Below the pieces are notes generated by a model. It worked only from the letters and a program-made list of their open reading frames with translations. It did not search any database and was not told the origin of the DNA. From Gallionella sp. (lineage in GTDB: Bacteria > Pseudomonadota > Gammaproteobacteria > Burkholderiales > Gallionellaceae): a DNA stretch of 64,000 nucleotides. Made by a program: the position numbers and the translations under genes. The DNA lies in assembly GCA_028687335.1 (NCBI GenBank), contig JAQUAI010000001.1, positions 186,001-250,000 on the forward strand, read 5' to 3'. Positions 28,386-33,884 of the stretch are shown one piece after another. Numbering within the stretch: position 1 is the first letter of the stretch; each line of letters begins with the position of its first letter.

Positions 28386-30866
28386 ATGGGAAACGGAATT
28401 CGAATTCGCAAGGTCGCGGTGCTCGGTGCTGGTGTGATGGGTGCGCAGATCGCTGCGCATCTGGTGAACGCCAATGTCGAGACCTTGTTGTTCGAGTTGC
28501 CGGCAAAAGAGGGTGATCCGAACGGCAATGTGAACAAAGCGCTCGAGGGGCTGAAGAAGCTCGACCCCGCGCCTATCGCTAGTCCCAACAAACTTAGCTA
28601 CATCCAGGCTGCGAACTACGACCAGCATCTGGAGAAATTGCGCGATTGCGACCTCATCATTGAAGCTATCGCTGAACGCATCGATTGGAAATCCGACCTG
28701 TATCGCAAGGTCGCGCCGTTTGTGAATGCGAATGCCATCTTCGCGACCAACACCTCCGGTCTTTCCATCAACAAACTGGCCGAAGCCTTTCCTGAGAATC
28801 TGCGTCATCGTTTCTGCGGCATCCACTTTTTCAATCCGCCACGCTATATGCACTTGATCGAACTCATTCCGTGCAAGGGCACAGAAGCGGGATTGCTTGA
28901 TCAGTTGGAGACTTTCCTCGTCTCCACCGTAGGCAAAAGTGTTGTGCGCGCAAAAGACACGCCTAATTTCATCGCCAATCGCATCGGTGTGTTCTCTATG
29001 ATCGCCACCAAGCATCATGCGGCGGCGTTCAATCTTGGCTTCGATATGGTGGATGCACTGACGGGTCGTTATCTTGGTCGCCCCAAGAGCGCCACCTTCC
29101 GCACGCTCGACGTGGTCGGTCTCGATGTGTTCGCACACGTGGTCAACACCATGCGCGATAACCTAAACGAAGATCCGTGGCACAAGCATTATGAGTTGCC
29201 GGGCTGGTTCCAGTATCTGGTCGAACAGGGTTCGCTGGGACAAAAGACCAAACGCGGTATCTATCAAAAGATCGGCAAAGAGATACATGTGCTGGATCTG
29301 CATACCAAGGAATATCGACTATCCGACGCCAAGGTGGACGATGGCGTCAAAGATATTCTGCGTGAACGTGACTGGGCTAAGAAGCTCGCAGGGTTGCGTT
29401 TGAATCCGCATCCGCAGGCGCAGTTCCTGTGGGCTACCTTCCGTGATGTGTTCCACTACTGCGCACTACATCTGGGCGACATCGCCAACAATGCGCGCGA
29501 TGTCGATTTTGCCGTGCGTTGGGGTTTCGGCTGGGACAAAGGTCCGTTCGAGATATGGCAAGCGGCAGGCTGGCAGCAAGTGGCGGGCTGGATCAATGCT
29601 GACATCGCCGCAGGCAAAGCGATGGCGAGTGCGCCGTTGCCGTTCTGGGTGACTGCGCCATCGCGTATCGGTGTTCATTCTGAGCAAGGTTCATTCTCGC
29701 CCACCAGTCAGAACGATCAACCCCGTTCGACACTTCCCGTCTATCGCCGTCAACTATTCCCCGATGCGCTGCAAGGTGAGACGCACCACTATGGCGAGAC
29801 CGTGTTCGAGACCGATGAAGTACGTATGTGGCACATGGGCGACGGCATCGGCATCCTCAGTTTCAAGAGCAAGATGCACACTGTCAACAACGAAGTGCTG
29901 GATGGTGTGTTGCGCGCGGTGGACGAAGCCGAAGCAAACTTCAGCGCACTCGTCATCTGGCAGACCGAAGCACCGTTCTCCGCCGGTGCGAATCTGTTGC
30001 AATTGATGCAAGGCGTGCAAGAGACGCCGGCAGAGTCGGGTCTGTTCGGCAAACTCAAAGGCGCGGTGAATCGTGTGAAATACACCGCAGCAGGCGGTGG
30101 TGGCATGGGCGATCTGTTCAACGCGGCGACCGGCAATGTGCCTAAGGTCGAAGAGGTGGTGGCCAAATTCCAACAGACCTCGATGCGTCTCAAATATGCT
30201 CAAGTCCCCACCATCGCTGCTGTCGATGGCCTAGCGCTAGGTGGTGGATGCGAGTTCTCTATCCACTGCACACGCATCGTCGCCACGCTGGAAAGTTATA
30301 TCGGCCTCGTCGAAGTGGGTGTGGGATTGTTGCCCGCAGGCGGCGGCTGTAAAGAGATGGCTCAACGTGCCGCCGCCGAAGCAAGAGGTGGCGACATCTT
30401 CCCGATATTGAAACGCTACTTCCAACACATCGCCATGGGTGAAGTCGCCAAGAGCGCAGAGATGGCGCGTGAGATGGGTTATCTGCGTCCCTCGGATCGC
30501 ATCGTCCTCAACAAGTTCGAATTGCTACACATCGCCAAAGAAGAGGCCAAAGCGCTCAATGCCACGGCCTACCGTCCACCCTTGCATCAACATCAGATAC
30601 CTGTTGCAGGCCGCACCAGCATCGCCACCTTCAAGGCATCCATGTTGAACATGCTCGAAGGTGGCTTCATCTCCGAACACGACTACAACATCGGCTGTCG
30701 CGTGGCAGAGAGCATGTGCGGCGGAGATGTTGAAGCGGGTAGCCTGGTGGACGAGACATGGCTACTCGACTTGGAACGCAAGAACTTCATGGAGCTACTG
30801 GCGACTGAGAAGACGCAGGCAAGGATTGAATATATGTTGAAGAGTGGGAAGCCGTTGCGGAATTGA
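28386..30866 (+). CDS. 3-hydroxyacyl-CoA dehydrogenase / enoyl-CoA hydratase (FadN-like)
   Basis: An 826-residue bifunctional beta-oxidation enzyme with the dehydrogenase first. NAD site VAVLGAGVMGAQIAAHL is at ~10-26, the dehydrogenase C-terminal domains run to ~390, and the hydratase/crotonase fold is at ~480-700 (APFSAGANLLQL, ALGGGCEF, VEVGVGLLPAGGGCKEM). The order is that of Bacillus FadN, opposite to E. coli FadB. It should be followed by a thiolase gene, but here the accessory region begins at its stop codon. Its last 26 bases recur twice downstream. Confidence 0.92.
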   Translation: MGNGIRIRKVAVLGAGVMGAQIAAHLVNANVETLLFELPAKEGDPNGNVNKALEGLKKLDPAPIASPNKLSYIQAANYDQHLEKLRDCDLIIEAIAERIDWKSDLYRKVAPFVNANAIFATNTSGLSINKLAEAFPENLRHRFCGIHFFNPPRYMHLIELIPCKGTEAGLLDQLETFLVSTVGKSVVRAKDTPNFIANRIGVFSMIATKHHAAAFNLGFDMVDALTGRYLGRPKSATFRTLDVVGLDVFAHVVNTMRDNLNEDPWHKHYELPGWFQYLVEQGSLGQKTKRGIYQKIGKEIHVLDLHTKEYRLSDAKVDDGVKDILRERDWAKKLAGLRLNPHPQAQFLWATFRDVFHYCALHLGDIANNARDVDFAVRWGFGWDKGPFEIWQAAGWQQVAGWINADIAAGKAMASAPLPFWVTAPSRIGVHSEQGSFSPTSQNDQPRSTLPVYRRQLFPDALQGETHHYGETVFETDEVRMWHMGDGIGILSFKSKMHTVNNEVLDGVLRAVDEAEANFSALVIWQTEAPFSAGANLLQLMQGVQETPAESGLFGKLKGAVNRVKYTAAGGGGMGDLFNAATGNVPKVEEVVAKFQQTSMRLKYAQVPTIAAVDGLALGGGCEFSIHCTRIVATLESYIGLVEVGVGLLPAGGGCKEMAQRAAAEARGGDIFPILKRYFQHIAMGEVAKSAEMAREMGYLRPSDRIVLNKFELLHIAKEEAKALNATAYRPPLHQHQIPVAGRTSIATFKASMLNMLEGGFISEHDYNIGCRVAESMCGGDVEAGSLVDETWLLDLERKNFMELLATEKTQARIEYMLKSGKPLRN

Positions 30867-30867
30867 T
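30842..30867 (+). repeat. fadN-tail direct repeat, copy 1
   Basis: These 26 bases (GAGTGGGAAGCCGTTGCGG, then AATTGAT) cover the last codons and stop of the fadN-like gene. Identical at 32269-32294 and with two mismatches at 34193-34218. Copies 1 and 2 are also similar over a further ~110 bp upstream. Confidence 0.85.
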
Positions 30868-30986: not shown

Positions 30987-32147
30987 ATGAAGCCTTCGTT
31001 CGTAGATTACCCGCTCAGAATTCTTGAGTTGAACTTCTCGTCTCCGTTGACCGATGTGGTCATGGAGTTGGAGTATTTACGTCGGCTGCAACTTTCGGGA
31101 GACACCCCGCCTGCCGTATTTTTCCAACTCAAAAATATTTTCCATACGCTGGAAAGTCTGGGGTCTGCCCGTATCGAAGGCAACCACACCACGCTGGCCG
31201 ACTACATCGAAAGCAAAATCGAAAACGCGCCCAATCCCACCGAAAATATCCAAGAAATTCACAACATCGAGCAGGCGATGGATTATGTGGAAGAAGCGGT
31301 GCAGGTTGGCGGTCACATCACCGAACAATTGATACGCGAATTGCACCAGATGACTGTCGGTGGTCTAGTGCGTGAAGGCGACAAAACGCCCGGAAAATAT
31401 CGTGGCGGAAACGTGCAAATCGCCGGAGCCACACACTTGCCGCCAGATGTATCTGCTGTGCTGGGCTATATGCAGGAACTGGTCGAATTCATCAACCACC
31501 CCGACGCGCACAAGTACGATTTGCTGAAAATGGCACTGGCGCATCACCGTTTTTGCTGGATACACCCGTTTGGTAACGGCAACGGACGCGTGGTGCGGCT
31601 GCTGAGTTACGCCATGATGATTAAGTACGGCTTTAATGTGCAGACTGGTGGCAGAGTGTTGAACCCAACCGCAGTCTTCTGCAACGACCGCGATGCTTAT
31701 TACGCGAACCTGTCTGGTGCGGATGATGGGACGGAGCAGGGCTTGGAAGCATGGTGTCTCTATGTGTTGAGCGGCATCCGCGACGAACTGCAAAAAGTCG
31801 ATAAGCTCACCCGCTACGATTACCTACGCGATGAAATTCTCAAACCTGCGCTGGCGCACGGTAAATCCAGAAAACTGATAAACGCGCAGGAAGAAGTCGT
31901 GCTGGCGATGGCGATAGCCAAAAAAGAATTCAAGGCAGCCGATTTGGATGCCGTGTTACCCGCAATGACTGCGCGCCAAAGAACCTATCTCCTGTCGAAA
32001 TTACTGGCCGCCCAGATGATTCGCCCAACACGCGAAGGCGCGCGCAGCTACACCATTGATTTCTCCAACAACCACCTGCTGCGCGGCGTGATTTATGCGC
32101 TGGAACAGAAGGGGTTTATTCCGCCGCTGGTGAAGGCGGCAATGTGA
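30987..32147 (+). CDS. Fic-domain protein (class II, N-terminal inhibitory helix)
   Basis: A 386-residue Fic protein of the type that usually transfers AMP from ATP to Ser/Thr/Tyr of target proteins. The inhibitory motif SARIEGN is at residues 60-66, with E64 the expected inhibitory glutamate. The Fic core HPFGNGNGRVVR is at 193-204, with catalytic H193. The position that is normally Asp or Glu and binds Mg2+ (fifth residue of HPFx(D/E)GNGR) is Asn197, so metal binding or reaction type may differ. The C-terminal ~100 residues look like a winged-helix segment. It stands alone between two copies of the fadN tail. The target is unknown; no antitoxin gene is next to it. Confidence 0.9.
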   Translation: MKPSFVDYPLRILELNFSSPLTDVVMELEYLRRLQLSGDTPPAVFFQLKNIFHTLESLGSARIEGNHTTLADYIESKIENAPNPTENIQEIHNIEQAMDYVEEAVQVGGHITEQLIRELHQMTVGGLVREGDKTPGKYRGGNVQIAGATHLPPDVSAVLGYMQELVEFINHPDAHKYDLLKMALAHHRFCWIHPFGNGNGRVVRLLSYAMMIKYGFNVQTGGRVLNPTAVFCNDRDAYYANLSGADDGTEQGLEAWCLYVLSGIRDELQKVDKLTRYDYLRDEILKPALAHGKSRKLINAQEEVVLAMAIAKKEFKAADLDAVLPAMTARQRTYLLSKLLAAQMIRPTREGARSYTIDFSNNHLLRGVIYALEQKGFIPPLVKAAM

Positions 32148-32156
32148 ATATGATGG

Positions 32157-32293
32157 TGTGCAGTAGTGACGTGGAAGGGGGCGGCATGGCTCTCGATTTG
32201 GAGCGCAAGAATTTCATGGAGCTGCTGGCGATGGAGAAGACGCAGGCAAGGATCGAATATATGTTGAAGAGTGGGAAGCCGTTGCGGAATTGA
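32157..32293 (+). pseudogene. Second copy of the fadN 3' end (remnant)
   Basis: This stretch is similar to about 30715-30866 of the fadN-like gene. The last ~97 bases differ at about five positions, the region before them is more diverged and has lost about 13 nt. It keeps the reading frame of the last ~30 codons (KNFMELLAMEKTQARIEYML) and the same stop. It has no start and is not expected to be expressed on its own. It follows the fic gene and precedes the kinase, separating two accessory cassettes. Confidence 0.8.
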
Positions 32294-32294
32294 T
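32269..32294 (+). repeat. fadN-tail direct repeat, copy 2
   Basis: Identical to the 26 bases at the end of the fadN-like gene, followed by a different sequence (TTGATATCGCG against ATGCAACTTT). It marks the boundary between the Fic cassette and the kinase cassette. Confidence 0.85.
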
Positions 32295-32336: not shown

Positions 32337-33473
32337 ATGACTGAGAAAACAGTGAAGTTCGTAATTAAGAAAGACTTTGTCCTAAAGCAGGAGCTTGGGC
32401 AAGGGGCCTGTGGGCGAACTGTTTTGCTATTCGATAGTGATATTGATGAGCAGTTCGTGTGTAAGAAATATTCACCGATTCATGAAAGCATGAAAGAGGA
32501 GTTCTTTAAGAATTTTGTTCGTGAGATAAAGTTGTTGCACCTGCTCAATCACCAGAATGTTGTTCGAGTATTCAATTACTACTTATACCCAGAGCAACAA
32601 ACAGGATACATATTGATGGAGTATGTGAGAGGTTTTGATATTGAAGGCTACTTATCCAAGCATCCAGAAGATGTTAACGAGGTTTTTGTTCAGGTCATTG
32701 AAGGATTTACACATCTTGAGAAGAATCAAATTTTGCATAGAGATATTAGGCCTCAAAACGTTATGGTGACTGATGAAGGAATCGTAAAAATCATTGATTT
32801 CGGTTTTGGGAAACAAACTGTCAATCCAGAGGATTTTGGGAAAAGCATTACACTAAATTGGTGGTGTGAGCCCCCTCCTGAATTCAAGGAATCAATCTAC
32901 GATTACAAGACAGAGGTGTATTTTGTTGGGAAGCTGTTTGAAAAAATTATTTCAGATAGAAACATAGAGCATTTTAAACATATGAGTTTGCTTGGTCGCA
33001 TGTGTGTTGCTACCACACATGCTCGAATTGCTTACTTTGCAGATGTAAGGAAGGAACTGCTTTCTGAGAAATTCTTTGATATTGGATTCAATGATGCAGA
33101 GTTAGATGCATACAGGGAGTTTTCGAGCAGTCTTTATAACGCAGTATCAAAAATTGAGTCCAGCACGAAGTATTACGATGAAATTGGAGAAATTCAGGTA
33201 AAGATTGAAGAGTGCTACAAAAAAATAATGCTCGAAGAGTACGTGCCAAATAGTTCGCTGGTTCTTAATTGCTTTATCAATGGCTCTTATCATTACGACA
33301 CTCACTATTCGATTCGCGTGGATGTGTTGAAGGCGTTTATTGATTTGTTTAGAACAGCGTCCCGTGAAAAGAAAAATATCATCATTGGAAATATTCAGAC
33401 AAAACTAGATGCGGTGAAAAAGTACAGCAAGCCTGCCACGCCGTTTGATTTTGACGACGATATTCCGTTCTGA
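32337..33473 (+). CDS. AT-rich protein kinase with SSB-like C-terminal tip
   Basis: A 378-residue eukaryotic-like Ser/Thr kinase. The core is intact: glycine loop GQGACG (21-26), a VCKKY lysine (43 or 44), HRD at 134-136 within HRDIRPQN, and DFG at 154-156. The ~200-residue C-terminal part has no recognised domain. The last eight residues are DFDDDIPF, the same as the end of E. coli single-stranded-DNA-binding protein, which docks repair and replication proteins. Base composition is clearly more AT-rich than the neighbouring genes, which points to transfer. No membrane segment or signal is present. A role in phage defence or DNA-damage signalling is inference from the tip and the context. Confidence 0.88.
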   Translation: MTEKTVKFVIKKDFVLKQELGQGACGRTVLLFDSDIDEQFVCKKYSPIHESMKEEFFKNFVREIKLLHLLNHQNVVRVFNYYLYPEQQTGYILMEYVRGFDIEGYLSKHPEDVNEVFVQVIEGFTHLEKNQILHRDIRPQNVMVTDEGIVKIIDFGFGKQTVNPEDFGKSITLNWWCEPPPEFKESIYDYKTEVYFVGKLFEKIISDRNIEHFKHMSLLGRMCVATTHARIAYFADVRKELLSEKFFDIGFNDAELDAYREFSSSLYNAVSKIESSTKYYDEIGEIQVKIEECYKKIMLEEYVPNSSLVLNCFINGSYHYDTHYSIRVDVLKAFIDLFRTASREKKNIIIGNIQTKLDAVKKYSKPATPFDFDDDIPF

Positions 33474-33492
33474 TTTATAACCACATAACACC

Positions 33493-33884
33493 ATGACAAC
33501 ACCAGTCAACCCACAACTCGATTTCATCGAGATCACGCAACTGATCCACGCCGCGCGGCAGCGTGCGGTGCTGGCGGTAAATACGGCGTTGATCGAGTTG
33601 TATTGGCAGGTGGGGCAGTTCATCAGTCGCAAGATCGCGCAGGCGGAATGGGGCGATGGGGTGGTGGTGAAATTGGCCGAGCATCTTGCGCAGATTCAGC
33701 CGGGGCTGAGAGGTTTTACCCGCCCAAACTTATTTCGGATGCAGCAGTTTTATGAGGCATATCAATGGGATGAAAAAGTCTCACCACTGGTGAGACAATT
33801 GCCGTGGACGCACTGCTGCAAGCCAAGCTACATGAATTCTATTTGCAGAATGCACCGGATGAGGATTCGGAAATCGTAAAGTGA
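33493..33884 (+). pseudogene. DUF1016 (YhcG-type) nuclease gene with internal deletion
   Basis: The first ~97 codons encode the DUF1016 N-terminal domain (ALIELYWQVGQFISRKI, GFTRPNLFRMQQFYEAY). After VSPLVRQLPW the frame changes. In the next frame (from about 33801) comes ALLQAKLHEFYLQNAPDEDS with its own stop, which looks like the normal C-terminus of the family. The central part and the PDDEXK nuclease core (~200 residues) are therefore missing. The remaining 128-codon frame may still make a truncated protein. It begins 19 nt after the kinase gene. Confidence 0.75.

Follow-up and report, generated by a model that had tools for sequence, protein, structure and literature searches.

SSB-Ct is a docking tag shared across bacterial DNA replication and repair. 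The sites that receive it are described as holding the last Phe in a hydrophobic pocket, its carboxyl group at a basic lip and the Asp residues along a basic ridge, and loss of the Phe or a Pro-to-Ser substitution is reported to lower binding (PMC10164576, PMC3594151). For RecG, a low-micromolar affinity for SSB-Ct (3.1 µM) is reported (PMC10164576). An engineered PriB chimera carrying the SSB C-terminal domain is reported to raise PriA stimulation (PMC8509808), and the SSB tail can thus work on another protein. Like the protein described here, the chimera is a foreign carrier of the SSB C-terminal domain, but it is engineered rather than natural and is not a kinase. A literature search on SSB-Ct, DIPF ends and kinases found no natural kinase with this end, a weak negative that covers titles and the openings of abstracts, with subscription papers mostly outside it.

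Among bacterial kinases, the nearest working likeness is YabT of Bacillus subtilis, a putative transmembrane, DNA-activated Hanks kinase reported to phosphorylate RecA (PMC3708118). The likeness is that of a Hanks kinase that stands alone and is linked to DNA repair, and we claim no membership; YabT is coupled by its own DNA-binding motif, whereas the coupling proposed here is a protein-docking tail. For kinase-based phage defence, the nearest likeness is KKP, two kinases and a phosphatase on prophages, for which a phage replication protein is reported as the trigger of defence (PMC11341870).

The protein described here is encoded in the window, a 64,000-nucleotide stretch of DNA from Gallionella sp. 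Its 378-aa open reading frame (ORF; 32337..33473, plus strand) has KKYSKPATPFDFDDDIPF as its last residues before the stop codon. The end DFDDDIPF matches E. coli SSB-Ct, taken as printed in PMC10164576, at 8/8 residues; this identity was first claimed in a sequence-only reading of the window, and both the reading frame and the terminal sequence agree with it. The host SSB, identified by PF00436, terminates in SNFDNFDDDIPF and has the same tip. The parts of the kinase gene are as follows.

32337..33473, plus strand: coding sequence of the kinase with the SSB-Ct-like end, 378 aa, ATG start, stop codon included (ORF and seven full-length relatives)
32379..32960, plus strand: protein kinase domain, residues 15–208 (Pfam PF00069, E = 2e-32)
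33069..33425, plus strand: C-terminal region of unassigned fold, approximately residues 245–363 (no Pfam or clear PDB match)
33426..33449, plus strand: short variable linker, residues 364–371 (0/8 columns invariant among eight sequences, gapped)
33450..33470, plus strand: SSB-Ct-like tip FDDDIPF, residues 372–378 (6/7 columns invariant among eight sequences)

By its motifs the window protein is a Hanks-type protein kinase, for which phosphotransfer is predicted. The PF00069 score is 113.1 bits against a curated cut-off of 31.7, and the motifs GQGACG, FVCKKY, VREI, HRDIRPQN and DFGFG are present, with Arg in HRDIRPQN at the catalytic-loop position where Lys is the usual residue of Hanks-type kinases. 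The glycine loop, Lys, Glu, HRD...N and DFG-type residues are kept in all eight members of the family (HRDIRP; DFG or DLG), which upholds the earlier proposal of an intact active site from GQGACG, HRD and DFG. The kinase lobe probably continues to about residue 244, as suggested by an aligned R..SF..V..EL pattern. For the region beyond, a Pfam search with the C-terminal regions of two members matched no family at E ≤ 1, and a C-terminal profile gave a single match among PDB sequences, at E = 0.3; an AlphaFold2 model of the kinase, built from two sequences, has a mean pLDDT of 34.6. The SSB OB-fold domain PF00436 is absent from a Pfam scan of the window kinase, and the protein is, judged by its domains, not an SSB. 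It thus has the terminal sequence of bacterial SSBs at its extreme C-terminus, but differs from them in that the tip is attached to a kinase through a linker of 4–8 residues, measured across members from the last conserved Tyr.

Relatives are few. Of 24 candidate stretches in a scan of genome contigs, one was confirmed as a relative (L011, with 77% identity along its length). Whole-genome profile searches at E ≤ 1e-25 found the kinase in 4/300 and 4/399 genomes of the order, 5/158 of the family, a patchy distribution, and 1/369 of the class (the window's own); a profile of the C-terminal part, at E ≤ 1e-4, found it in 2/229 genomes of the phylum (the window's own and G1079) and in 1/158 of the family of G1079 (itself). 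Each count takes in the genome from which the search started, and the samples overlap, the two order samples among them, so the counts are not additive; some searches scored only part of the first-look candidates per genome (four in the 399-genome order search), so members were possibly missed. The class sample of 369 genomes seems identical in the full-profile and C-terminal-part searches. Two weak matches to the C-terminal part in that sample were rejected, one being valyl-tRNA synthetase-like and the other a non-kinase by eye.

The family therefore comprises eight distinct members: the window kinase, L011, G812 (L024/L046), G603 (L012/L019), G579 (L013/L020), G480 (L014/L021), G715 (L023/L047) and G1079 (L049/L050). 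L022 (G751) is the same gene as L011 and is counted once, and L030, L031–L037 and L048 are repeats of known members. G1079 comes from a different order within the same class, and the other members with known kinship belong to the order of the window genome. Whole-protein identities among the first seven members are 52–86%. In the kinase tree, three clades are supported at 100/99 or better, namely window, G812 and L011; G480, G715 and G579; and G603 and G1079.

The tip is kept throughout the family. The earlier reading had proposed that homologues be compared at their ends, where unrelated C-termini would mark the match as chance; F-x-DDIPF instead terminates 8/8 full-length members, across three clades and two orders of one class, five of the eight having come from profiles that include the tip (7 of 376 or 171 positions), and the match is therefore not a chance one. 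The eight ends are PFDFDDDIPF, ANFDDDIPF, FDSFDDDIPF, TPSFYDDIPF, FSDFDDDIPF, LPKFADDIPF, FPKFDDDIPF and EPTFSDDIPF. Among the eight members, invariant columns number 101/205 in residues 1–205, 27/158 in residues 206–363, 0/8 in the linker, where the alignment is loose because of gaps, and 6/7 in the tip. In pairwise comparison of the first seven, identity averages 18.8% for the linker and 92.5% for the tip. Furthermore, the tip codons, including those for Asp, differ silently between members, and dN is 0.081–0.179 in the seven pairs above 70% identity, in which NG86 dS was incomputable (−1) and was read as saturation. The conserved tip beside a variable linker, the silent changes in its codons and the dN values with dS read as saturated together indicate that the tip is maintained by selection.

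The DDIPF end is also specific. In seven kinase genomes (G1079 left out), DDIPF followed by a stop codon occurs at 15 places, against one for the reversed-pattern control. These are the kinase (seven), ssb (seven, of which two match PF00436 positions and the others were identified by eye) and a broken second ssb (one). The window genome contains DDIPF-stop at two places only, ssb and this kinase, so none of its six other kinase-like places has the tip; likewise, the tip is present in 0/5 distant kinases inspected from the plasmid collection. We considered a recent fusion of a host ssb fragment to the kinase and found it unsupported in a comparison of the DDIPF-stop codons, and of the residues before the tip, between kinase and ssb of the window genome: the codons differ silently, and the preceding residues differ as well. 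The broken second ssb, in G579 (L044, G579:C33), still encodes an MDDDIPF end.

The surroundings of the gene suggest a history of movement. The features next to the kinase in the window are as follows.

28386..30866, plus strand: fadB-like 3-hydroxyacyl-CoA dehydrogenase/enoyl-CoA hydratase, an insertion-site landmark common to L011 and G812
30987..32147, plus strand: Fic protein between fadB and the fadB-tail copy (Pfam Fic, E = 3.3e-17; full-length PADLOC SoFic, E = 1.9e-49), not a conserved partner
32185..32294, plus strand: copy of the fadB 3′ end, ~110 bp (30757–30867), just 5′ of the kinase (92.8% identity over 111 aligned positions)
33493..33879, plus strand: short DUF1016_N ORF 3′ of the kinase (Pfam, E = 9.7e-30 over residues 13–109 of 128, the N-terminal domain alone)

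In G812, the kinase lies directly 3′ of fadB (50 bp), whose product has 3HCDH and ECH domains, while in L011 HicAB lies between fadB and the kinase; a decayed fadB tail 5′ of the L011 kinase was suggested by eye, and blastn gave no significant match for it. Small accessory genes appear to use the 3′ end of fadB as a landing site, and the 128-aa DUF1016_N ORF is probably a remnant. The kinase family has a second landing site in the mutL region of two genomes of the window's genus, where a 53%-identical kinase lies: in G715 (L047:8983-12003), the kinase follows mutL on the same strand with a gap of 42 bp, and in G480 (L021:8940-12888), it is again downstream of mutL and codirectional with it, a transposase-like ORF (by eye) lying between them. 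In G579, the kinase is flanked by a convergent recQ and by a gene that looks by eye like an aminotransferase gene.

The earlier description of the gene as AT-rich is borne out, with a GC content of 0.382 against 0.540 in the 6-kb flanks, and the contrast extends to all eight members (0.36–0.44 in the kinase genes, 0.50–0.64 in the flanks). In addition, the window genome, G480 and G715 belong to one genus, yet the window kinase clusters with kinases from two further genera within the family, and the G480 and G715 kinases cluster with that of G579, from another family. This conflict between kinase tree and taxonomy would reflect either transfer or old duplicates with many losses. The best reading of the GC contrast, the patchiness, the differing loci and the conflict between tree and taxonomy is that the kinase gene moves horizontally. 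Phage- or plasmid-borne copies were looked for and rejected: no relative was confirmed among the viral contigs searched; 30 matches in phage records and 216 in plasmid records included none covering 80% of the window kinase; and of 205 plasmid matches to the G579 kinase, two covered 80%, at 23–24% identity.

We consider it reasonably probable that the window protein is a mobile kinase with a tail that mimics SSB-Ct, binds SSB-interacting proteins and so directs phosphorylation to them, or to proteins nearby, at single-stranded DNA (ssDNA). The residues kept in the tip, a C-terminal Phe with its α-carboxyl, Pro and the Asp side chains, are the set that the SSB-Ct pockets read, and the host encodes at least two known SSB-Ct receptors, chi/HolC (PF04364, E = 3.5e-39) and RecO (PF11967, E = 1.3e-19). 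Because these are the residues that the pockets read, the host has chi and RecO, and the tail works on PriB, docking on SSB-interacting proteins is strongly implied. Specifically, the carboxylate, Phe, Pro and Asp of the tip would enter the SSB-Ct pocket of SSB-interacting proteins of host or phage, such as chi, RecO, RecG, PriA, RecQ or ExoI. The docked kinase would then be placed where SSB-coated ssDNA is processed and would phosphorylate SSB-interacting proteins or a neighbour, with changed fork restart, repair or phage replication as the outcome. We infer the substrates, as well as a role in anti-phage defence or DNA-damage control. For E. coli SSB, a linker of 11–20 residues is reported as necessary (PMC10164576); with the 4–8 residues of the kinases, access to the pockets may differ.

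The main rival to docking, which we regard as unlikely but deserving weight, holds that the tail is bound within the protein, by an SSB-Ct pocket of the C-terminal region itself that keeps the kinase off, until SSB on ssDNA drives the tail out and thereby activates the kinase; the protein would then be a sensor of SSB-coated ssDNA. The 4–8-residue linker suits such an intramolecular contact, the C-terminal region has no known relative in Pfam or among PDB sequences, the tip of SSB is reported to contact the OB domain of SSB itself, an interaction favoured by short linkers (PMC10164576), and YabT is a reported precedent for a DNA-activated bacterial kinase (PMC3708118). However, residues 206–363 are far less conserved (27/158 columns) than the tip (6/7), and a private pocket could co-vary with the tail instead of keeping the SSB sequence. 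Somewhat less probable still is that the protein is an ordinary kinase with a regulatory or housekeeping function, its C-terminus being kept for a dimer contact, a turnover signal or binding to the clamp or another peptide groove, and having converged on SSB-Ct. Some members do lie among housekeeping genes (fadB, mutL), but the full pocket-reading set is matched (DD, P, F and a free C-terminus, with 8/8 SSB residues in the window), DDIPF-stop is common only to the kinase and ssb genes among the seven genomes, and patchy presence in the family (5/158 genomes) is ill-suited to housekeeping.

Conservation of the tip in 8/8 members would equally serve a tail that only competes with SSB for its partners, removing repair or replication proteins while the kinase acts elsewhere, and small-molecule competitors of SSB-Ct at ExoI, including a Pro-Phe mimic, are reported to disturb such complexes (PMC3594151). 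The kinase motifs, however, are kept in the same eight members, and the product of a single catalytic gene is unlikely to outnumber SSB; we regard this explanation as distinctly improbable. Least probable is a chance end of one protein. From residue frequencies in the long frames of the window, the probability that a gene ends in DDIPF is 2.2e-7, and about 5e-4 such ends are expected per genome (2400 genes assumed), or about 2e-5 for F-x-DDIPF. With so short a motif, single cases must arise over very many genomes, but 8/8 relatives in three clades keep the tip, and this conservation rules out a chance match unless the relatives found are unrepresentative.

If docking of the kinase is true, a natural non-SSB enzyme with SSB-Ct would show that the tag can be borrowed, and protein phosphorylation would be linked directly to the processing of ssDNA. 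We know of no earlier natural signalling enzyme that enters the SSB hub by imitating SSB, so the kinase would be the first. One terminal residue offers a simple handle on the link between kinase and ssDNA, and the tip, being identical to that of E. coli, is testable with E. coli proteins and laboratory phages. We give about even chances to a broader proposal, that SSB-Ct serves as an address label of mobile kinases, steering phosphorylation to the SSB interactome at ssDNA and probably stopping phage or plasmid replication or resetting stalled forks.

If the kinase is a defence gene, its suggested point of attack would be the SSB interactome. PADLOC models match the kinase domain only, mad6 at residues 11–175 (E = 8.4e-34) and PD-T4-6 at residues 9–157 (E = 7.7e-29). 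Membership of MADS/MAD6 was rejected, the MAD6 score of 80.6 bits being far under the NCBI cut-off of 460, as was membership of PD-T4-6, whose best model is matched at profile positions 7–157 of 327 only. The PD-T4-6 label also falls on a gene reported in all analysed strains of Streptococcus thermophilus, with modelled domains that resemble a Ser/Thr kinase and kinase-binding modules (PMC11514479). The label is therefore broad, and the mad6 and PD-T4-6 matches do not indicate a defence role. No second kinase and phosphatase of the KKP kind were recognised beside the kinase in the ORF lists of the loci, in which ten neighbours and two window neighbours were domain-scanned.

Across all eight loci, no constant neighbour gene was seen, DNA-repair and defence genes included. 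The sequence-only reading had placed the kinase in an accessory region with Fic and DUF1016 genes; both are present, but the setting is local to the window genome and does not recur as a constant context. Defence-like neighbours occur at some loci, namely Fic and the DUF1016_N ORF in the window, HicAB in L011, and a TIR gene and a Fic gene (L019:11283-12038) beside the kinase in G603, and none was recognised at the other loci at fadB, mutL or recQ. In G1079, the kinase ends 17 bp before L050:9130-9708, which matches DUF4145 below the threshold (19.8 bits, cut-off 23.1) and whose product is a possible partner of the kinase at that locus.
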